Positions 3,198-62,910 of a stretch of DNA of 64,000 bases are shown piece after piece. Position 1 is the stretch's first letter, and each line of letters begins with the position of its first letter. The stretch comes from a virus: IMG/VR virus record IMGVR_UViG_3300046665_000384, positions 1 through 64,000 of that record, one strand, 5' to 3'. The translations under genes and the position numbers were made by a program. Below the pieces are notes generated by a model, which was not told the DNA's origin, did no database searches, and worked only from the letters and a program-made list of their open reading frames with translations.

Positions 3198-5854
3198 CAG
3201 GCCACCTTCTTTTGAAATTCAGCGATGAAGAAATTCTTGGCCGCGACCTTGGCGCGCTGGATCATGTCGAGGTACGCGCCTTCCGGATCGGTGTACTTCT
3301 GCGCCAGCGCGGCGAGACGGTCCGTCACGGCCTTATCGTAGAAATCGACCTTGCCCTCCGCCGCCAGCGCGAGGAAGTCACCATCGGCCGCCTCTTGGTC
3401 TTCTGCCGCCTGTTTCGCCGCTGCCTCGGCCTGCGCTGCTTCCTCGGCTTCGCGCGCCGCCTGCGCCGCAGCTTCAGCCTGCCGGGCCTCCTCGGCTTCG
3501 CGCTCGGCCTGCGCGGCCGCCTCCGCCGCTTTTGCGGCCTCTTCCTGCGCGCGGGCCTCGGCATCCGGGTCCGCCTGCGGTTCCGGCTCCGGATCGGCGG
3601 CCGGGACGGTCGGCATGCCCTTGGCGGCCAGCTCCTTCAGCTCGCCATAGGTGCGGCCGTTGAGCTTGGTGATGAAGCCGCTGATGGCGCTACCGCGCTC
3701 GTCCTCGTCCATCTCCATGTACGCCGGCAGGTAACGCGGGCTGATCGTGTTGAGCGCCATCGCCATCTGCGTTGCCTCGTCGGCCACGAATACCACGCTG
3801 GCGTCCAGCTTCAGGTCTTCGCTCAGGTAGGCTTCGGCCATGTCGTCAGCCGGGTCGATGGCGGCGTAGTAGCGGCCCGACAGGAATTCGCCGTTGGACA
3901 TGGTTTCCGTGCCCAGCAGCGGGCGCGGGGCGTTCAGGATGACCCAGTTCGCACCCACGGCAACGCCTGGCATCGGGTTGGTCGAGGTGACGACGGCCTT
4001 GATGCCGTCCACGTTCAGCTGTGGGACTGCTGCGCGGGCATCTTCCAAGCGCTTGAGCGCGGCCTCGATGTCGTCCGGGTGATTCTGGTCAATGGCGTCC
4101 ACCAGATCAGCGCCCCACTTGCGGTCGGCGTTGCGCACGTCGAGGAAGCCGGCGACCTTGCGCTGATCCGCCTCGGAAAGCTGCTCGATGCGAGCGCGCA
4201 ATTCATCATGGCGGCGCTGGAGGTCGGCTTGCTCATCCTCGGTCAGCAGCGTGCGGGCCGGGGGCGGGTCGTTCTCCCGCTCCACGCGCGCCACCTCGAT
4301 CTGGCGGGTCAGGTCGGCGAGCGTCGCTTCCTTGGTTTCCAGCTCGGTTTTCAGGTCGGCGATCACCTGCAACTTGGCGGCGCGCGTCGTGTTGGCCTTG
4401 GCGAAGCGCTCGCTGTTCTTCTCGGCCAGCTTCATGATGCGCGCAGCAACGGTACGCACGTCCAGATCGCGTCCGCGCTCCGGGGCGACGGCGACCGTGA
4501 TGTCTTTCTTGTTCAGCATCCACTTCCACGACACCAGCTCGTCGCCCTGCGCGATCTTCTTCGGCGTCACGTCCGGATTGTGGAAGAAGATGGAGACGGT
4601 CTGGCCATCCGTCAGCTCATAGACCACGGCCACGTTCGTGCTGCCGCGCTGCGTGAAGGGCTCGGACACCTGCATCGCCGCGACCTTGACGGTACCGCTG
4701 GCGCGGTCCAGCACCTTTTGCAACAGCGTCATGCGCTGCTGGAGGCGTGCGAACGGCAGCACCAGCGCATCGAACGTCAGCACGCCGTCCGCGTCAGCGA
4801 TGATGTCCTGTACGGTCAGGGAGTCGAACAGCAGGCCGTCCGCGCTGTCGTGCTTGCGCAGGGCGTACAGCACCTGCTCCAGATTCGCATGCAGGGGCAT
4901 GTTCGTGCTGTCCCACAGTACCTTTTCCATTTCGTTTTTTCCTTCAGCCGGGAATTGATTTTGCTCGATGGGCAGCGCCTTGTTCCCGTTGGCGATCCAC
5001 CATTTAAGTTGCTTCAGGGTGCAGGGCACGCAGTCGCGCATGCCCTGCCAGCCCTCCTCATAGCCGCTCAAGTAGCCCGCCTCAGCTTCGCTCTGGTTCG
5101 CGAAGCCGAACATGATCTTGTGCTCATCGAATACGCCGTCGATGAACTGGTTCACGACATAGGCCAGCTCGGCATTGAGCGGTGCAGGCCCTATTGTGCA
5201 GTCCAGTTCATCGCCGTCATTGCCGAGTGTTCCTTCGATGTAGCCGTAGGCGAACGACATCACGTGACTGCCGCGAGTACCGTCCGCCGCCTTCCAGTGG
5301 CGCACGGTGCCGCGCGGTGACTCGATTGCGATGCGCAGGCCGTACAGGGCGTATCGATCCTTCGGGTAGTCGCCGGACTCTGCCTGCTCCTCCGTGATGG
5401 GCTTCAGGCCCGGAACGATCAACGGATCGTCCGCGCTCCAAACCGGCATGCCATATGAATCGATTGGATTTGAAACGGCCGGCGCAATCGGAATGGCCGG
5501 GGTATCAAGCGCGGCCGTGACGATGCTCGAGACTCCATCAGGCCCATAAGCCTGAAGGCGCACCGTGTAGCTCCTTTCGGGGAGCTTCCCAACGATGTCG
5601 TAGCTCAGGGCGTTGCCAACGTCGATCCAGTATGGCGTCCCCATGTCGCAGCTGATGGAGTAGCCGCTGACGTTGCCCGTGGCCGCCTGCCACGCCGCAT
5701 GCGCCCCGAAAGGGGTGATGGACGACAGGGATACGCCCCCGACAAACACGGGGGGATTGGGCACGACTGGGGCCGGCTGCTGACTCTGCGCAGGAGGATT
5801 GGTAGGGGCCAGATAGGTGAGGCCATTGATGGTGGCCGGGTGCAAGTAGATCAT
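3197..5854 (-). CDS. Polyvalent protein: FN3, inorganic-pyrophosphatase-like and DarA_N-like domains
   Basis: 885-aa multidomain protein. Residues 35-118 resemble a fibronectin type III module. Residues about 171-296 match the InPase domain of polyvalent proteins, with GNDGDELDC (211-219) and DEHKIMFGF (243-251). Residues about 405-490 match the DarA N-terminal (defence against restriction A) type, with DGQTVSIFFHNPD and SWKWMLNKKDITV. Coiled coil follows (490-600), then an unassigned domain (about 640-750) and an Ala/Glu/Gln-rich repeat coil (760-830). InPase and DarA_N are known in long phage and plasmid proteins thought to enter the cell with DNA and blunt restriction. Here the family-level calls are from remembered motifs; the anti-restriction role is inference. 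Confidence 0.75.
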   Translation of the reverse strand: MIYLHPATINGLTYLAPTNPPAQSQQPAPVVPNPPVFVGGVSLSSITPFGAHAAWQAATGNVSGYSISCDMGTPYWIDVGNALSYDIVGKLPERSYTVRLQAYGPDGVSSIVTAALDTPAIPIAPAVSNPIDSYGMPVWSADDPLIVPGLKPITEEQAESGDYPKDRYALYGLRIAIESPRGTVRHWKAADGTRGSHVMSFAYGYIEGTLGNDGDELDCTIGPAPLNAELAYVVNQFIDGVFDEHKIMFGFANQSEAEAGYLSGYEEGWQGMRDCVPCTLKQLKWWIANGNKALPIEQNQFPAEGKNEMEKVLWDSTNMPLHANLEQVLYALRKHDSADGLLFDSLTVQDIIADADGVLTFDALVLPFARLQQRMTLLQKVLDRASGTVKVAAMQVSEPFTQRGSTNVAVVYELTDGQTVSIFFHNPDVTPKKIAQGDELVSWKWMLNKKDITVAVAPERGRDLDVRTVAARIMKLAEKNSERFAKANTTRAAKLQVIADLKTELETKEATLADLTRQIEVARVERENDPPPARTLLTEDEQADLQRRHDELRARIEQLSEADQRKVAGFLDVRNADRKWGADLVDAIDQNHPDDIEAALKRLEDARAAVPQLNVDGIKAVVTSTNPMPGVAVGANWVILNAPRPLLGTETMSNGEFLSGRYYAAIDPADDMAEAYLSEDLKLDASVVFVADEATQMAMALNTISPRYLPAYMEMDEDERGSAISGFITKLNGRTYGELKELAAKGMPTVPAADPEPEPQADPDAEARAQEEAAKAAEAAAQAEREAEEARQAEAAAQAAREAEEAAQAEAAAKQAAEDQEAADGDFLALAAEGKVDFYDKAVTDRLAALAQKYTDPEGAYLDMIQRAKVAAKNFFIAEFQKKVA

Positions 5855-5857
5855 GGC

Positions 5858-8332
5858 TTACCCCACAGTAGCGGTCACGTCGAAGTTGCGGCCGTCCGCG
5901 AGCTGCACGGACACCCCGCAATTCGCGCCGACTGCCAACGTTGATTGCATCGTGAACGTCAGAACGCCACTGGCATTTGTCGTCTGCGCCGCCGATTTGT
6001 ACTGCGGGGCAGCACGCAGGTCTGGCGTAGGCTGATCGAATGCCGCCACCTTAATGCCGGCAAGGTTCGCCAGCGGCCCAGACGCATCACCCAATGTCAG
6101 CGTGACGGTGCGCGCAGTCGTGGTTCCAGTCGATGCCAGCGCAGAGCGAATAGCATTGGCGGCAAGCGGCGCAATGTGCGTAATGTTCTCGACCCCGTAC
6201 GGATGCAACGAATCACTTGCATTGGCAGTCGTGAACCAACCGGCAGTGTTTACGTAGGTGACACGGCTCGGCGCTGTGCAGGCCGCAATCGCGTTTTGCA
6301 GCTGAGTTGCGTGCACCGTACCGTTGCCGGATGCCACCCCGTCAAACGGACGCAGGACGACAATTTTTGTTGTCCCCGGCGTTGCGGCCAGCAGCCCGTT
6401 TAATACGGTTGTCGCGGCGGCCGTAATGTCGCCGGGCTCGTTCGTGCCTTCCATCAGCACGATGAAATCCGGGGCTGGGGTAAATGAACGGGCCACTCCA
6501 GAGTAAAGGTAGTTGTAGCTGGACGTGAGGCCCGGCACGCCACCCGATCCGGACTTGCTGAAGCCAGTTGCGCCGAAACCAACGTTCCCGATTTCTGCGC
6601 CGAGAATACGCGCGACTTCCAGAGACCAGCCTTGACCTGCATCGTTCCGGTCGGTGTCGTACGTGGCGGTCATGTTGACCGTACGGACGCCTTCCGTAAT
6701 GCTGTCACCGTAGAAGATGGCCTTCAGCGGCAACGATGGTGGCGCGCTGATCGTCTTGCCGGCATCGAGAACGATGCCAGTAAGCTTTACGGCGGTCGAC
6801 TGGGTGCTCCAACGCGCCTGCGTCTCGGTAGTGCTCTTTACCAGAACTTCCAGAAGGTGCCCGCCCTTGTTTGCGTAGTCGGCGGTGTCGGACGGAATCG
6901 TGATCGCGACTGAGGCTGCAATGGGGGTGCTGATCCACGGCCCGAAACGGTCCACCCGGTACGAAATTTGAGGCAACGGCGAAGCGATGCCGGTCATGTC
7001 GAAATTGAGCGTACAGGACGTGCCGCCAAAGACCGCCTTGAAATAGGCCCCGGCGTTGATCGTTTTGGCACTGGAGGCTTGAATGTCCCAGTTGTATGGC
7101 GAGAACAGGACGCTACCCGTGCCATTCGTCAGTACGTTGTTCGCGGCTGCAAGCGTACTGACAGTCGTGGAGATTGCTGCTGCTCGATTACCTGCGGCAT
7201 CGTATGCGCGCACCTGCGGCGTGTAGGCGGTATTCGCAGCCAACCCGCTGACAGCCGTGGTCAGGACATTGCCAACATCGGTCCAGCTCGTGCCGCCATT
7301 GGTACTGTATTCGTAACCAGCGACAGCAACGTTATCCGATGCGGCCGACCATGTGAGCGTGAAGCCGGAAGTGGTGGCAGCACTGGCTGCAAGCGAGCCA
7401 TTCATCGTAGGTGCCGCCCCATCCGAAGAGGTGGCGGTAGTCACGTCAAGAGACAGCGGAGCCGACTTGTTCAGGGCAGCGTCGTAGGCGCGCACCTGCG
7501 TGTGGTACAGCGTGTTCTGTGCAAGTCCGGTGATCGCCTTGGTCAGAACGTTGCCGGCATCGGTCCACGAGGTTCCGTTGTTGGTGCTGTACTCATACCC
7601 GGTGACCGCCACGTTGTCGGATGCAGCAGTCCACGACAGGGTAAATCCGGAAGCGGTGATGCTACTGGACGAAAGCGAGCCGACAGCCATCGTTGGCGCA
7701 ACGGTATCGCTTGAGGTAGCGCCATCGTCAACACTCACATCATCAATGCCGGTCGTCGCGGAACCTGCGCCAGAGCGGTACAGACCAACATAACCACTTG
7801 CGTACGTCGCATCGGTGAAGGTTGCCGTAGGCGTGGAAGGACGAGTACCACCTGTCGTGCTGTTCCAGATGCGCAGCTCGTGCGTGCTACCACTGGAAAT
7901 GCACTCGACTTCCATCACGTCGCCAGCGGCGAAGGTAGCGGTGCTCGCACCAGCCGTGTAAAGGCTTGTGAAACTCCCGCTTGCACGCCTGAAAAACTTT
8001 GGCGTGACTTTATTGGCATTGATAGAGAAATCCAGAATCCACAGGTAGCCGTTGAGATACCCGGAGTCCATGCGGATATGTGGCGAATAGTGCCCGGCAT
8101 TACTGGTGGGGCTTGGGACTTTCTGGCTGTACCTGAATTTTGTATACGATTGCGCTGCTATGCCCGTATAGAGAGCAGTATGACCATCAACGGTAGTCGA
8201 TGACCCGAAACTTTGCGTGCCAGAAATGGGATTATTGGCTCCAACAACCCACGTACCAGTTTTTGCTGTCCATCCAGATGCAATCTGGCCAGAGGTTTCG
8301 CTATCAAAATTACTTAAGTAGAGAATTGTCAT
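5858..8332 (-). CDS. SGNH/GDSL-hydrolase tail protein with two FN3 repeats
   Basis: 824-aa protein. Residues 1-205 resemble a beta-sandwich lectin/LamG-like module. Two near-identical FN3 repeats follow (about 212-300 and 306-393, both with SGFTLxWxAASDNVAVxGYEYST). An SGNH hydrolase domain covers about 535-735, with GDSIT (Ser544, block I), GTNE (629-632, block III position) and DSLHP (Asp707, His710, catalytic pair). An Ig-like C-terminal domain ends the protein. SGNH enzymes are serine esterases; on phage tails they typically deacetylate surface polysaccharide. Base composition looks less GC-rich than its neighbours, consistent with recent acquisition. A weak ribosome-binding site precedes the ATG. 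A receptor-modifying tail protein is the best reading. Confidence 0.8.
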   Translation of the reverse strand: MTILYLSNFDSETSGQIASGWTAKTGTWVVGANNPISGTQSFGSSTTVDGHTALYTGIAAQSYTKFRYSQKVPSPTSNAGHYSPHIRMDSGYLNGYLWILDFSINANKVTPKFFRRASGSFTSLYTAGASTATFAAGDVMEVECISSGSTHELRIWNSTTGGTRPSTPTATFTDATYASGYVGLYRSGAGSATTGIDDVSVDDGATSSDTVAPTMAVGSLSSSSITASGFTLSWTAASDNVAVTGYEYSTNNGTSWTDAGNVLTKAITGLAQNTLYHTQVRAYDAALNKSAPLSLDVTTATSSDGAAPTMNGSLAASAATTSGFTLTWSAASDNVAVAGYEYSTNGGTSWTDVGNVLTTAVSGLAANTAYTPQVRAYDAAGNRAAAISTTVSTLAAANNVLTNGTGSVLFSPYNWDIQASSAKTINAGAYFKAVFGGTSCTLNFDMTGIASPLPQISYRVDRFGPWISTPIAASVAITIPSDTADYANKGGHLLEVLVKSTTETQARWSTQSTAVKLTGIVLDAGKTISAPPSLPLKAIFYGDSITEGVRTVNMTATYDTDRNDAGQGWSLEVARILGAEIGNVGFGATGFSKSGSGGVPGLTSSYNYLYSGVARSFTPAPDFIVLMEGTNEPGDITAAATTVLNGLLAATPGTTKIVVLRPFDGVASGNGTVHATQLQNAIAACTAPSRVTYVNTAGWFTTANASDSLHPYGVENITHIAPLAANAIRSALASTGTTTARTVTLTLGDASGPLANLAGIKVAAFDQPTPDLRAAPQYKSAAQTTNASGVLTFTMQSTLAVGANCGVSVQLADGRNFDVTATVG

Positions 8333-9680: not shown

Positions 9681-10601
9681 ATGCAGCTCTACCAGATCAA
9701 CAACAACGGCAATCACTACTGCGGCCCGGCCGTCATCTCCGCCGTCGCCGGCATCGGCACCAAGGAAGCGGCCGCCCTGATTCGCCAGCGCACGGGCCGC
9801 GCGCGGGTGACGGGCACGCACTGGCATGAGCTTCAGGGCGTGCTGTCGGCGCTGGGCTACGGCATGGATGGCGTGCGCATACCGCTCAATTCCGCCGCCG
9901 CGTACAAGACCGTGAACATGCGCACATGGGGCGCGGCCGTCGCCAAGGGAAAGGCGGTCTACCTGCTCCATGTGGGGCCGAAGAAGGGCGGGCACTGGGT
10001 TCTGGTGCAGGGCCGCCATGCGATATGCAGCAGGACCGGGAACCTCGTGGCGCTGGACGACCATCCGAATGCGCGTTCGTTCGTACAGGGCGCGCGCCTC
10101 ATCACCAAAGTGCGCACGGTGGACCCTGCCGCCGTGGTGCCGAAAAAGCTGGCCAGCGCGACTCCCGCGCGCCGCAAGGCGAAGTTGCTCGCGCAGGCCA
10201 ATAACATCGGTTTGAACCGCCTGAACTCGCGCGACCCGTTCCCGCTGGAGGTCTGGCCATACGGGGGGCTTGCGGACACGGCTGGCGATCCATACAACGG
10301 CGATCACTACGCCTATTCGTGGGCCGAAGCGCTGGAGCGCGTGGAGAAATACGCTGCGATCCGGGCGAAGTCTCCGGATGCTGACCCGCTTTCCACGGCG
10401 CTGGCGCTGGCCACGCAGCACGGCATCACCATTGAGCGCGAAGACGCCGAAAATCGCACGATCTGGGTCTACCCTCCGGAGTCGATCAGCGAGGACGATG
10501 ACCCGCACGGCGACTCTCACCACGTCGCCACATGGCCGGAAGCATTGGCCCGCGTGCGCGAATATGTCGCGCTGTTGACCGGGGCGGCCGAAACCGCTTG
10601 A
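9681..10601 (+). CDS. Papain-like (C39-type) cysteine peptidase with C-terminal tandem repeats
   Basis: 306-aa protein with ATG at 9681 (CGAGGATCGCC upstream). Residues 1-130 fit a papain-fold peptidase: the nucleophile in NHYCGPAVI (Cys14), a His in GGHWVLVQG (about 105) and an Asp in ALDDHP (about 125). Such domains cleave double-Gly leader peptides in C39 transporters, but phage copies are stand-alone and their substrates are unknown. Residues about 190-240 and 252-298 are two copies of a repeat with W-x-Y/PP ... GD.H ... WxEALxRVxxY, maybe a binding module. The stop codon overlaps the -35 box of the promoter of the next gene. Confidence 0.65.
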   Translation: MQLYQINNNGNHYCGPAVISAVAGIGTKEAAALIRQRTGRARVTGTHWHELQGVLSALGYGMDGVRIPLNSAAAYKTVNMRTWGAAVAKGKAVYLLHVGPKKGGHWVLVQGRHAICSRTGNLVALDDHPNARSFVQGARLITKVRTVDPAAVVPKKLASATPARRKAKLLAQANNIGLNRLNSRDPFPLEVWPYGGLADTAGDPYNGDHYAYSWAEALERVEKYAAIRAKSPDADPLSTALALATQHGITIEREDAENRTIWVYPPESISEDDDPHGDSHHVATWPEALARVREYVALLTGAAETA

Positions 10602-10626
10602 CGCTTTTTGCGTACGCGCATACACT
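10598..10626 (+). promoter_or_regulatory. Early-type promoter, diverged operator
   Basis: TTGACG (10598-10603), 17-base spacer, TACACT (10621-10626). The spacer holds GTACGCGCATAC, a better palindrome than the other copies (GTAYGC/GCRTAC). It overlaps the peptidase stop and precedes the gene at 10654. Confidence 0.65.
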
Positions 10627-10653
10627 TTGCACATATCAACGCTGGAGCCCGCC

Positions 10654-11202
10654 ATGGAACTGAAGTCGAACGCGCCTGAAATCAAGTGGATCATCGCCAA
10701 CGCGGCGACGAACGACTTCGCGTTTTCGCTCGACCGCCAGCTGCTGTCGAAAGGCTACCTGAGCGACGCGCAGGTGGCTGCCGTCGCGCGCAAGCTGGTT
10801 CCGGTGCCCGGCGCAGTGGCGGTTGCTGGCGCTGGCGTGCAGGCCGTGCAAACCGCCTTTGCGACGGCCAGCGCCAACGGCCTGAAGCGCCCCAAGCTGC
10901 GCCTCGGCGGCTACGTCCTGAGCTTGGCCCCGGCGACCGGCCGCAATGCCGGCGCGATCTACGTCAAGTCGACCAGCGAAGAATACCTCGGCAAGATCAC
11001 CGATGGCCAGTTTCAGCCTACCCGCGAATGCACCGACGAGCAGCGCGCGGAAATCGTCAAGCTGTGCGCAAACCCGGTCGAGTCGGCCGTCGCGTACGGC
11101 AAGCAGACCGGCATCTGCGCCTGCTGCGGTCGCGAGCTGTCCGACCCGGAATCCATCGAGCGTGGCATCGGCCCGATTTGCGCCGGTAAATTTGGCTTTT
11201 GA
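10654..11202 (+). CDS. DUF6011-type zinc-binding phage protein
   Basis: 182 aa from ATG 10654, preceded by GCTGGAG. An earlier TTG at 10627 lies before the likely transcription start and is rejected. The C-terminus, ICACCGRELSDPESIERGIG followed by PICAGKFGF, is the Cys-rich signature of DUF6011, common in phage and plasmid proteins. It forms a small zinc site (CxxCGR...C). The middle carries a beta-rich region (LGGYVLSLAPATG, GAIYVKSTSEEYLGKI) that often accompanies DUF6011. Function is unknown; nucleic-acid binding is plausible. First gene of a five-gene overlapping run to 12785. Confidence 0.75.
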   Translation: MELKSNAPEIKWIIANAATNDFAFSLDRQLLSKGYLSDAQVAAVARKLVPVPGAVAVAGAGVQAVQTAFATASANGLKRPKLRLGGYVLSLAPATGRNAGAIYVKSTSEEYLGKITDGQFQPTRECTDEQRAEIVKLCANPVESAVAYGKQTGICACCGRELSDPESIERGIGPICAGKFGF

Positions 11203-11209
11203 GGGCCCC

Positions 11210-11581
11210 ATGAAGACCCCCGACACCACCGAAAAACACCCCCCGCTGTTCCGCGAAGACGGCAAGCTCCTGCGGTCGCTCGCGTTTGTCCCGCGTGCCA
11301 ATGCGAAACCAGCGTCGATCCGCGTCACACTCCAGAGTGCGAGCAAGCCGCTCAATCGCAAGGCCAAGGAAACCATGTTCACGCTCGAAAATAAGAGCTT
11401 CCACGAACAATACCACCGCGCAGTAGCGGCCTTGGCTGACTTTCGCGGCATCCCGGCCGACGATCCGGTGCGCCTCAAGATGGAAGCGACCGCCGACGAA
11501 TTCCTGCGCTACTTCGGCCTGAAAACCAGAACCGTCACGAAAATCTACGAGGAAGTGACTTTCGAGCAAACATCCCGCTAA
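11210..11581 (+). CDS. Hypothetical phage protein (123 aa)
   Basis: ATG at 11210, eight bases after the DUF6011 stop, with GAGGG upstream. Residues 1-45 are probably disordered and basic; 55-100 form helices (FHEQYHRAVAALADFRGIPADD). No known domain recognised. Part of the early island operon. Confidence 0.65.
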   Translation: MKTPDTTEKHPPLFREDGKLLRSLAFVPRANAKPASIRVTLQSASKPLNRKAKETMFTLENKSFHEQYHRAVAALADFRGIPADDPVRLKMEATADEFLRYFGLKTRTVTKIYEEVTFEQTSR

Positions 11582-11591
11582 GGATAGCCAC

Positions 11592-11870
11592 ATGACAATC
11601 GAGAAATACGACCGCTACACCTACGAGCACAAGTCCAACATGGGCGCAAACCCGGTTTGCGTCTACGGCTGGGGCACCTACACCAGCGGCGTGCTGGAAG
11701 GCCAGCCGATGAAGTGCTTCATCGACGCCTACCCGGACGCGGAAGAGGCCCTGAAGGCGTACCCGCAGGCCCAGCCGAGCAACCGCTTCAGCGAGCCGCG
11801 CGTGAACCTCAACCACCTGCCGGGCGAAGATGATGCGGTTCCCGGCGGGATGTACCCGGACGACTACTGA
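11592..11870 (+). CDS. Hypothetical small phage protein (92 aa)
   Basis: ATG at 11592 preceded by AAGGATAG. Acidic, Tyr/Pro-rich, beginning MTIEKYDRYTYEHKSN and ending PGGMYPDDY; a short YGWGTY motif and DAEEALKAYP helix suggest a small alpha/beta fold. Not recognised. Its stop lies one base before the next start. Confidence 0.65.
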   Translation: MTIEKYDRYTYEHKSNMGANPVCVYGWGTYTSGVLEGQPMKCFIDAYPDAEEALKAYPQAQPSNRFSEPRVNLNHLPGEDDAVPGGMYPDDY

Positions 11871-28884: not shown

Positions 28885-28897
28885 GAGGTAGAGGCAC

Positions 28898-29146
28898 ATG
28901 AACAAGTACACCCGCGTTTTCGTAGCCAGCTGCCCCAATAATGGCGAAGCGATTATCTACACGCTCACTATCGAAGTAGTTGGTCGCATGATCCCGGTAG
29001 AGCACATCGTAACCGCTACAGCTCTGATCAAACGCGGATACCACGAAGCGATTGCCGATGACCTTTTCCAACGGTTCGGAGGGCATCAGATTTTGCGTGC
29101 ACATCATCATGGCGTGGACATTGAAACGGTACGGAGTGTCGTGTGA
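28898..29146 (+). CDS. Hypothetical early protein (82 aa)
   Basis: ATG 28898 preceded by GAGAGGTAGAGG. Sequence YTLTIEVVGRMIPVEHIVTA suggests a small beta sheet with a C-terminal helix. Overlaps the following GTG by four bases. No family recognised. Confidence 0.6.
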   Translation: MNKYTRVFVASCPNNGEAIIYTLTIEVVGRMIPVEHIVTATALIKRGYHEAIADDLFQRFGGHQILRAHHHGVDIETVRSVV

Positions 29147-29850
29147 CGCTGCATTACCACGGGACGCCGATCACTCCACGCAAGGTGCTGGCAGAACTGA
29201 CCGGCCGATGCTTTTGCGTCTCGTTCTGGCGGCCGGACGACGTGGAATGGCGCCATCAGTACGGGCAAAGCGTCATGCTGGACAACGGGGCTTTCAGCGC
29301 ATGGCAGGAGGCGATTCGGCGCGGCGCTACGCCAGATATCGACTGGACGGCTTTTTATGCGTGGTGCGACCAGTGGCTCGCCTTTCGCACGACGTGGGCT
29401 GCAATCCCTGACGTGATCATGGGCGATGCAGTTGCCAATGACGCGCTGATCCAGCAATGGCCGCACGGCCAGCGTGGCGCTCCTGTATGGCACATGCACG
29501 AGCCCATCGAGCGCTTGATGCGCCTGTGCGATGAGTGGGAGCGGGTCTGCATAGGCTCGTCAGCCCAATACAGCGTCGTCGGCTCGGCCGAATGGCATCA
29601 CCGCATGACAGAAGCGATGAACGCGATCTGCCGAACTGGTCGAGCGCCGACATGGCTACACATGTTGCGCGGGATGAATGCAGCGCGATGGGGCTACCCG
29701 TTCGCCAGCGTAGATAGCACCGACATCGCTCGCAACCATAACAGAAAGAACAACCCTCGCGAGATGGCCGACGCTTGGGACGCAATTCAGTGCCCGGCCA
29801 CATGGAAAAGAAAATATTTGCAAGCTGACCTATTGGAGAACGCAGCATGA
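29143..29850 (+). CDS. TGT/DpdA-like guanine transglycosylase family protein
   Basis: 235 aa. It carries the motifs of TGT-type TIM barrels from phages: MLDNGAFSAWQ (46-55), IPDVIMGD (88-95), PVWHMHEP (114-121), CIGSS (136-140), and SVDSTDIARN (189-198). tRNA-guanine transglycosylases and DpdA swap guanine in tRNA or DNA for a 7-deazaguanine; DpdA proteins insert it into phage DNA and block restriction enzymes. The Asp in SVDST is the usual catalytic-site position. None of the folE/queD/queE/queC genes that supply the modified base is seen here. Base-exchange in phage DNA is therefore inference; it might use a host precursor. Confidence 0.65.
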   Translation: MTLHYHGTPITPRKVLAELTGRCFCVSFWRPDDVEWRHQYGQSVMLDNGAFSAWQEAIRRGATPDIDWTAFYAWCDQWLAFRTTWAAIPDVIMGDAVANDALIQQWPHGQRGAPVWHMHEPIERLMRLCDEWERVCIGSSAQYSVVGSAEWHHRMTEAMNAICRTGRAPTWLHMLRGMNAARWGYPFASVDSTDIARNHNRKNNPREMADAWDAIQCPATWKRKYLQADLLENAA

Positions 29851-30908
29851 CCAGCACGATCAAACGACATGAACTGAAGACCGACCCGGCCGCATTCGAT
29901 GCGGTGCGCCACGGCACCAAGACCCACGAAATCCGCTTCAACGACCGCGAGTTTGCAGTCGGCGACGAACTACTGCTGCGCCAGACCGTGTTCGCTGCGG
30001 CCGACCTGAAGCCGGGCCAGACGAACAGCTACACCGGGGCCGAGCTGCTGCGCCGCGTGACGCACATTCAGGAGGGCTACGGCCTCGCGCCGGGCTGGGT
30101 CATCCTGTCTTTTGACAGCGAGCCAGCCATCCTCAAGGGCATCGGCAGGATCGATGGCGACGGCTGGAAGGACATCACAAAAAGAGGCGAAGTCGTGTTT
30201 GTTTGGAACACTGAAATGCCTCGTCCGCACAAGGCAGGGCAGTACCCGCGCGTCGGCAACCAATGCGAGTGGACTGCCAGCACCGATCAATACGACTTCG
30301 CTCCTGCTACGCCGAATGAGGCCCGCGAAGTAATTGGCGGCATGATTTCCTCCGACCGCGACACAATCTCAGCGCTACAGAAGAACTACGACGACATGCG
30401 CGGCAGGCTTGAAGCCGCTCTCGAACAGCGCGGCAAAGACCTTACCCAAACCACTGCCGACTACGAGGAAATCTTGGCCGGCCATCGCCGCTTGGTGCGC
30501 GAGCTGGACGTGCTGCTGAACGGCGAAGCCGGCGCAGCGCGACAAGCCAGCCTTGCGGACATCGTAGCGCAGGTGCGGCGCGAGGGCATTGCAGCGCTGC
30601 CGCAGTCGGCACGCGACGTGATCGCCGAACGACGCGCTCAGGTGACGCGCGAAGGCTATGACCACGAGAACGACGACGCGCATGTGCAGGGTGAGCTGGG
30701 TGCTTATGCTGCCTACTACGCTATGCCGCCGGGCGCGCGCGAGTGGCCGGCCGCCGAAACCGGCTATGGCGAGACGTGGGGCGAGGCGATCATCCCCGAG
30801 GGCTGGACTCCGCCGAAGCCGGGCGACCGCCGCCGCGAACTGGTGAAGGCTGGCGCTCTGGTGCTGGCCGAAATCGAACGCATCGACCGCACGGGAGAAG
30901 GGGCATGA
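29847..30908 (+). CDS. DUF3850 (ASCH-like) protein with second phage domain
   Basis: 353 aa. Residues 5-92 match DUF3850: KRHELKTDPAAFDAVRHGTK, THEIRFNDREFAVGDELLLR, YGLAPGWVILSF; this is an ASCH/PUA-like RNA- or nucleotide-binding fold. Residues 170-260 are coiled coil. Residues about 265-345 are another phage module (YDHENDDAHVQGELGAYAAY, WGEAIIPEGWTP) of unknown role. The start overlaps the TGT-like stop by four bases. Function not established; an RNA-linked role fits the neighbour. Confidence 0.7.
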   Translation: MTSTIKRHELKTDPAAFDAVRHGTKTHEIRFNDREFAVGDELLLRQTVFAAADLKPGQTNSYTGAELLRRVTHIQEGYGLAPGWVILSFDSEPAILKGIGRIDGDGWKDITKRGEVVFVWNTEMPRPHKAGQYPRVGNQCEWTASTDQYDFAPATPNEAREVIGGMISSDRDTISALQKNYDDMRGRLEAALEQRGKDLTQTTADYEEILAGHRRLVRELDVLLNGEAGAARQASLADIVAQVRREGIAALPQSARDVIAERRAQVTREGYDHENDDAHVQGELGAYAAYYAMPPGAREWPAAETGYGETWGEAIIPEGWTPPKPGDRRRELVKAGALVLAEIERIDRTGEGA

Positions 30909-61647: not shown

Positions 61648-62910
61648 ATGTGGATTAATAACGCGCAGGTCTACCGCCTGCCCAAACGCTACGCCCTGAC
61701 CTCTGCCCAGCTGATCGAAGCGCTCACGCCCCAGACGTTTGCCCCCTGCTCCAGCAACGAAGCCGAGCGCGCCGGCTGGGTACCGCCCCGTCCGGGCGGC
61801 GAACTGGTGCACGTCGTCCACGGCCAGATGATCCTCAAGCTGTGCGTGCAGAAAAAAGTCCTGCCGGGCGCGGTCGTGAACAAGGAGCTGAGGGCACGGT
61901 GCGCTCAGCTGGAAGAACAGCAGGGTTTCCCGCCCGGCAAAAAGGCGACCAAGGAACTGAAGGAGCGCGTCACCGACGAGCTGCTGGCGAAGGCGTTCGC
62001 GAAGGACGATTTCACGATGGTGTGGATTGACTGCACCAACGGCTGGCTGGTGATTGACGCGGCCAGCGCCACCAAGGCCGACGCGGTGATCAAGCTGCTG
62101 CTCAAGGCGGTCGACCGGATGCCGCTCGAATCGCTGCGCGTGCAAAAGTCGCCGGTCGCGGTGATGACGGGCTGGCTGGAGTCCGACGAGGCCCCGCATG
62201 GCTTTACCGTGGATCAGGATGTGACGTTGCGCGCAAGCGGGACGAGCGACGCCACGGTGACGTACAAGCGCCACAGCTTGGACCCCGAAGACATGCGCCG
62301 CCACATCGCCAACGGCAAGCAGTGCGTACGCCTCGCCCTGACGTGGAACAGCCGCGTGTCGTTCGTGCTCGACGAATCGCTGGCCGTCAAGCGCATCCAG
62401 CCGCTGGACGTGATCAAGGAAAACACGGCCGTCACCTACAGCGACGACGAGCGTTACGACAACGACATCATGCTCATGACCGGCGAGATGGCCAAGCTGC
62501 TCGATGGCCTCGTGGAAGCGCTGGGCGGGTTCGCCGTCGACGGCGTGGATGTCGGCCAGCAGTCCGCGCTGCCCTCCTCCGCGCACGAGGCCGCGCGCCA
62601 GCTGCACCAGACCGTTGCGCAGGCCGGCGCTACCGCCACCCTGACCTTCGGAAATCGTTCCGTGACGTTTGGCGCGCAGGACGGTGAGAACGAGCAGGAC
62701 GATGACGCCCTGTATGAGCAGGCTGTCGCCGTGGTGCGCGCCAACCAACGCGCATCCATCTCGCTCGTACAGCGCCACCTGCGCATCGGCTACAACCGCG
62801 CCGCGCGCCTGCTGGAAGAGATGGAGCGCAAGGGCGTCGTGAGCCCGATGGAGAGCAACGGCAACCGCACCCTGCTCCAGACCACCAATGACCAATCGGA
62901 GGCCGCATAA
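61648..62910 (+). CDS. rdgC: RdgC-FtsK gamma-domain fusion
   Basis: 420 aa. Residues 1 to about 292 match Rdg[59 protein letters not shown]. RdgC is a ring-shaped DNA-binding protein that can limit RecA. Residues about 351-412 match the FtsK gamma winged helix: [55 protein letters not shown]. FtsK gamma reads KOPS to steer DNA pumping and activates XerD. A roughly 60-residue linker joins them. I know RdgC and FtsK gamma as separate proteins, so the fusion is unusual. The stop overlaps the ParB-like start by one base. Confidence 0.85.

Follow-up and report, generated by a model that had tools for sequence, protein, structure and literature searches.

A singleton-type DpdA gene and an overlapping gene for a small QueF-Like-fold protein form a conserved pair in phage genomes

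The dpdA-type transglycosylase gene described here does not stand alone: it overlaps a small upstream gene, missed by the original prediction for this DNA, whose 82-residue product is, as judged from structure modeling, a mini T-fold protein with a QueF-Like (QueF-L) fold. The QueF-L fold and the constant adjacency of the two genes (123/123 loci) suggest that DpdA and the small protein probably work together, finishing a host-made base on phage DNA. We regard as the probable explanation a portable two-gene salvage cassette, in which DpdA would insert host preQ0 and its partner would convert the nitrile. The window, i.e., the whole stretch of 64,000 nucleotides that was analyzed (positions 1–64,000 of IMGVR_UViG_3300046665_000384), is part of a 92,973-b IMG/VR virus record which may itself be a fragment.

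The frame carrying the motifs MLDNGAF, PVWHMHE, CIGSS and SVDSTDIARN (Table 1) is a real open reading frame, as first read, and its description as a TGT/DpdA-like enzyme is upheld by several comparisons. PHROG 887 (“queuine tRNA-ribosyltransferase”) matches the protein at E=2.7e-55; hhalign with a profile built from 107 non-redundant relatives gives P=5e-9 against the experimentally validated DpdA of phage 9g (probability 96%; control P ≥0.12 for 20 shuffled 9g DpdA sequences); and in the viral structure library BFVD, queuine/queuosine tRNA-ribosyltransferases account for 6/6 named matches at E<=0.001. The hhalign register places D47, H117 and D191 on the 9g motifs DSGAF, FHAGEP and CDSSS, and these three residues, together with P89, D90, G138, H173 and R176, are invariant or nearly so across the 107 relatives (the numbering of the conservation alignment omits the first residue). 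The TIM barrel, which had been named as the fold to look for, is borne out by an AlphaFold model with pLDDT 86.9 whose structural matches in the PDB are TIM barrels, at TM scores of only 0.35–0.49 and with TGT absent from the top 50. Matches to the protein were found by tblastn in 104 phage records; gp38 of Pantoea phage MED16 matches it at 41% identity, and the DpdA of Salmonella phage 7-11 was recovered with the same DpdA profile.

A classical bacterial TGT was considered for this gene and rejected. PF01702 (TGT) matches neither this protein nor anything else in the record, no CxCxxC of the classical CxCxxC…H zinc site occurs in the 235-residue sequence, and hhalign against classical bacterial TGT gives no significant score (P 0.28–0.37). 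The Pfam TGT model is equally silent on nine further family members and on 9g DpdA; no relevant model in Pfam, NCBIfam or PADLOC matched the protein, and PDB sequence searches, whether by the DpdA protein, its profile or the small-protein profile, returned nothing relevant. The superfamily assignment rests on 9g DpdA, the PHROG, the viral transglycosylases among the structure matches and the HHpred result published for MED16. By these sequence comparisons, 29143–29850 encodes a singleton-type DpdA, which adds a member to a known family, and not a classical TGT.

Table 1. Coordinates of the gene pair and of its putative active-site codons in the window
Feature	Position	Strand	Remarks
QueF-Like-fold (T-fold) small protein, phrog_37496, conserved dpdA partner	28898..29146	+	82 aa; AlphaFold, Foldseek, hhalign, linkage
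Small-protein Cys12 codon, equivalent of the QueF/QueF-L thioimide-forming Cys	28931..28933	+	Invariant 61/61
Small-protein Glu35 codon	29000..29002	+	Invariant 61/61; aligns with Glu of QueF ESKS
Small-protein His49-Glu50 codons	29042..29047	+	Align with QueF FHE; Glu50 invariant 61/61
GTGA overlap: dpdA start GTG over small-gene TGA stop	29143..29146	+	Translational-coupling type
dpdA-type guanine transglycosylase (“singleton DpdA”, PHROG 887)	29143..29850	+	235 aa, GTG start
DpdA Asp47 codon (DNGAF)	29281..29283	+	Aligns with 9g DpdA DSGAF (TGT general-base motif)
DpdA His117 codon (VWHMHEP), invariant	29491..29493	+	Aligns with 9g DpdA FHAGEP
DpdA Asp191 codon (SVDST), invariant, candidate nucleophile	29713..29715	+	Aligns with 9g DpdA CDSSS

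The small protein has no match in Pfam, and in PHROGs it falls only into the unnamed family phrog_37496. Its AlphaFold model, built with 49 relatives, reaches pLDDT 97.2 and runs in the strand–strand–helix–helix–strand–strand order of a T-fold. A QueF identity had already been proposed from a motif pattern ahead of the Foldseek search of the PDB, in which the best 12 matches are archaeosine synthase QueF-Like (5JYX/5K0P; probability 1.00, TM up to 0.80, E-values 1.5e-3 to 2e-2), followed by human FolE and Vibrio cholerae QueF. Comparison of the small-protein profile with 29 unimodular QueF sequences (hhalign, P=2.4e-4; lowest P 0.04 among 20 column-shuffled controls) sets Cys12-Pro13 on the QueF Cys-Pro, Glu35 on the Glu of ESKS and His49-Glu50 on FHE, while the same profile gives P of 0.12 or above against TGT, QueD, QueC and YhhQ. 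One other identity, a QueD fragment, came into question through the PTPS-like gene that phage DMCA carries at the corresponding position; it was rejected on the QueD profile comparison (P 0.23) and on the fold, which is that of QueF-L.

Residues C12, P13, E35 and E50 are invariant in 61/61 non-redundant small-protein sequences. The QueF NADPH motif E(S/L)K(S/A)hK (ESKSLK-type) is absent from the small protein, only its Glu being aligned, as is expected of a QueF-L and not of a reductase. The acid/base of QueF is an Asp seven residues after the Cys. In the window this position is Ile19, and it is Ile or Val in most members, with Asp only in a distant branch; catalysis by the small protein would hence need another acid, for which Asp54 and His70 are candidates. 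Small genes of the distant branch (in loci L229, L233, L234, L250, L251 and L279) mostly encode an Asp seven residues beyond the Cys or close to that position, together with Gln in place of His49 and no Asp54, a pattern in which an exchange of the acid residue is possible from the aligned sequences.

Linkage between the two genes is constant. In 123/123 loci with the small gene (like the other counts of this paragraph partly redundant, owing to metagenome copies, and from a small-protein set found by a short pattern), dpdA lies on the same strand at a distance of at most 700 b, the genes abutting or overlapping in 74 loci and standing in the reverse order in 11. With the small protein as query, dpdA is close by in 80/80 of the viral loci fetched; a distant member of the small family used in the same way retrieves 5/5 loci with dpdA, two of them on contigs already counted. 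The only annotated phages with the small protein at E<1e-3 are Epa33, Mae-JY30 and RHph_X2_30, and dpdA is present in all three. ATGA or GTGA overlaps recur at the junction in other loci, and dpdA is probably translationally coupled to the small gene.

The reverse relationship is looser. Among 41 non-redundant loci with flanks that were found through DpdA alone, 10 have the small gene and 23 a YhhQ-type transporter, with at least one of these next door in 28, a result at odds with the earlier picture of an enzyme standing by itself. In a phylogeny of 107 DpdA proteins, the small gene switches between present and absent at least 17 times. Alignment of the window with six near relatives by blastn finds similarity over ~28893–29853 only; these relatives have just the two genes in common with the window and none of the flanking DNA, so the pair moves as a unit.

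Further genes of the pathway occur next to dpdA in some relatives. A YhhQ/Vut_1 gene lies beside dpdA in 49 relative loci. QueD separates the small gene from dpdA in two loci, making a three-gene cassette (L008, 1263–2628; L033, ~5774–7118), and near dpdA in three more (L015, L249 and L022). One isolated phage, Rhizobium phage RHph_X2_30 (L024, 3991–5690), has genes for a YhhQ-type transporter, a QueF-L-like protein and DpdA together. In a Rhizobiales MAG (L015, ~10001–11700), a dpdA relative is followed by QueE-like and QueD genes, and at L001 (8001–8705), next to an intact small gene, a dpdA relative is split into two ORFs (135 and 90 aa).

In the window itself, promoter, terminator and Rfam scans added nothing at the locus. 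The dpdA stop is overlapped (ATGA) by a DUF3850/ASCH-domain gene (29847–30908) whose DNA is not common to the nearest dpdA relatives; distant from the cassette, positions 61738–62528 have ~72% DNA identity to contig L031.

The phrase “without the 7-deazaguanine pathway”, under which the enzyme was originally introduced, requires qualification. Searches of the whole 92,973-b record for QueC, QueD/PTPS, FolE, Vut_1/YhhQ, classical TGT and canonical QueF found none of the six, and PF14489 (QueF) has no match in the record; the stated absence of folE, queD and queC therefore stands, whereas the implied isolation of the enzyme does not, because it overlaps the mini QueF-L-fold gene. FolE, QueD, QueC, QueF and TGT are all present in the bacterial genomes that carry the nearest relatives (Massilia sp. 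YIM B02769 and two Janthinobacterium), where these relatives are probably prophages. Host preQ0 should thus be available, and its use, one of the options originally listed, is the best reading. The Massilia genome that harbors the nearest prophage relative also contains an apparent bacterial dpd island (L124, L186, L195, L202; G001:C24 ~472700–479173) with genes for QueC, QueD, a 435-aa DpdA-like protein, DGQQR-motif (DndB/DpdB-like) proteins and Vut_1.

We propose that DpdA would remove guanine from phage DNA by a TGT-type covalent-Asp mechanism and put in preQ0 made by the host for queuosine. Cys12 of the small protein would form a thioimide with the preQ0 nitrile, most likely on the DNA-bound base, in a step modeled on archaeal QueF-L acting on tRNA; archaeal QueF-L turns over with ammonia only preQ0 that is in nucleic acid (PMC5485725). 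Because the small protein is without an NADPH site, the thioimide would be resolved by other means, most likely ammonia to give 2′-deoxyarchaeosine (dG+), followed in likelihood by water to give the amide dADG. DNA as the substrate, host preQ0 as the donor, and the small protein's reaction and product are what we infer from these comparisons, conversion to dG+ being the most likely outcome by analogy; the modification may serve to protect phage DNA partially against restriction. The more specific version, a minimal two-gene dG+ salvage by DpdA and an ~80-residue QueF-L-fold amidating enzyme that acts on DNA with some other acid in place of the usual Asp, is offered tentatively.

Several observations count against the salvage cassette as we describe it: Ile19 at the acid position, the dPreQ1, and not dG+, of Streptococcus phage Dp-1, the dADG that MED16 and 7-11 contain without a small gene, the Foldseek E-values for QueF-L, and the failure of classical TGT to match the DpdA profile significantly or to appear among the top 50 PDB matches of the DpdA model. 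The first and third bear on an unlikely alternative, that the small T-fold protein is a non-enzyme subunit which binds or delivers preQ0 or guanine, or targets DpdA on DNA, the final base being dPreQ0 or dADG reached by other means. Constant coupling in either gene order would suit a subunit equally well, Ile replaces the QueF acid Asp in the window clade, and the DNA of MED16 and 7-11 acquires dADG with no small gene (PMC8306585, PMC6884629). A mere binder would nevertheless have no need of the CP-motif Cys, E35 and E50, which are kept in 61/61 sequences, and the many DpdA relatives without a small gene indicate that DpdA does not require one.

The dPreQ1 found in Dp-1 virions despite a QueF-L prediction (PMC6884629), together with retention of the Cys and His-Glu, would fit a small protein that is a QueF-type nitrile reductase with dPreQ1 as its product, like the Dp-1 QueF-L homologue. 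We consider this improbable, given the missing ESKSLK-type NADPH motif, the rank of QueF-L ahead of QueF among the fold matches and the fact that the hosts already own a QueF.

Slightly less probable again is action of the pair on RNA, such as host or phage tRNA, a possibility that the original prediction had raised. In bacteria and archaea, tRNA is the substrate of TGT and QueF-L, and PHROG 887 bears a tRNA name; the DpdA profile, however, fits the DNA-acting 9g DpdA and not classical TGT, the DNA of the relative MED16 contains dADG (PMC8306585), and no tRNA gene was found in the window. That dpdA is a decaying relic without function, also suggested at the outset and in keeping with a record that lacks the de novo pathway (folE, queD, queC), is scarcely credible, since both genes are under purifying selection (dN/dS = 0.07–0.10 against close relatives, for dpdA and the small gene alike), with frames intact and active-site columns strictly kept, and the cassette recurs, intact and portable, in otherwise unrelated phages.

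Our search of the literature, which did not reach subscription papers, returned no report of the dpdA–small-gene pair, and as far as searchable papers show the cassette of dpdA and a mini QueF-L is an undescribed variant. A 2023 Nucleic Acids Research paper in the same field reportedly defines further DpdA subfamilies. Phages with DpdA but without preQ0 or G+ genes were recognized as a third group by Hutinet et al. (2019; PMC6884629); at 76 phages, these lone-DpdA phages are the largest and least explained group of that survey, which left open both the base they carry and the protein that modifies preQ0, and which found YhhQ in some phages without correlation to any group. For part of this group, the small gene, unnamed in standard profile libraries, is a candidate to encode the enzyme that was missing. 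The pair is present in phages already isolated (Pseudomonas phage Epa33, Rhizobium phage RHph_X2_30 and Microcystis phage Mae-JY30), in which a direct test is possible; if our reading is true, dG+ would arise in bacterial phage DNA by two-gene salvage, through a T-fold enzyme acting on DNA.

Among known systems, the singleton DpdA of MED16 and 7-11 belongs to the same family as the window DpdA and is likewise encoded by phages with no folE, queD or queC. Virion DNA of both phages contains dADG (PMC8306585, PMC6884629), which in MED16 amounts to ~0.13% of G with dpdA as the only such gene (PMC8306585). No homologue of the small QueF-L-fold protein was found at their loci, whereas that of the window overlaps dpdA. 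Phage 9g has a homologous transglycosylase with aligned Asp/His/Asp motifs, and its dG+ is also the product predicted for the window; its cluster, however, comprises folE, queD, Gat-QueC and a radical-enzyme gene, with the formamidine made by Gat-QueC, whereas the window has no such cluster and its candidate amidating enzyme is the mini QueF-L fold.

The small protein is, in turn, like the QueF-L of Pyrobaculum calidifontis (5JYX/5K0P) in having a single T-fold domain, the Cys nucleophile position and no NADPH motif; it differs in size (82 vs ~105 aa, at ~15% identity), in the Ile that takes the acid-Asp position in the window clade, and in being coupled to a DNA-type transglycosylase. With bacterial QueF, the preQ0 nitrile reductase, it has the CP Cys, Glu and FHE in register, but it lacks the ESKSLK NADPH motif and is not recognized by PF14489. 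The preQ0 transporter YhhQ (COG1738) belongs to the same salvage pathway and, though absent from the window's record, is the neighbor of dpdA in many of its relatives.
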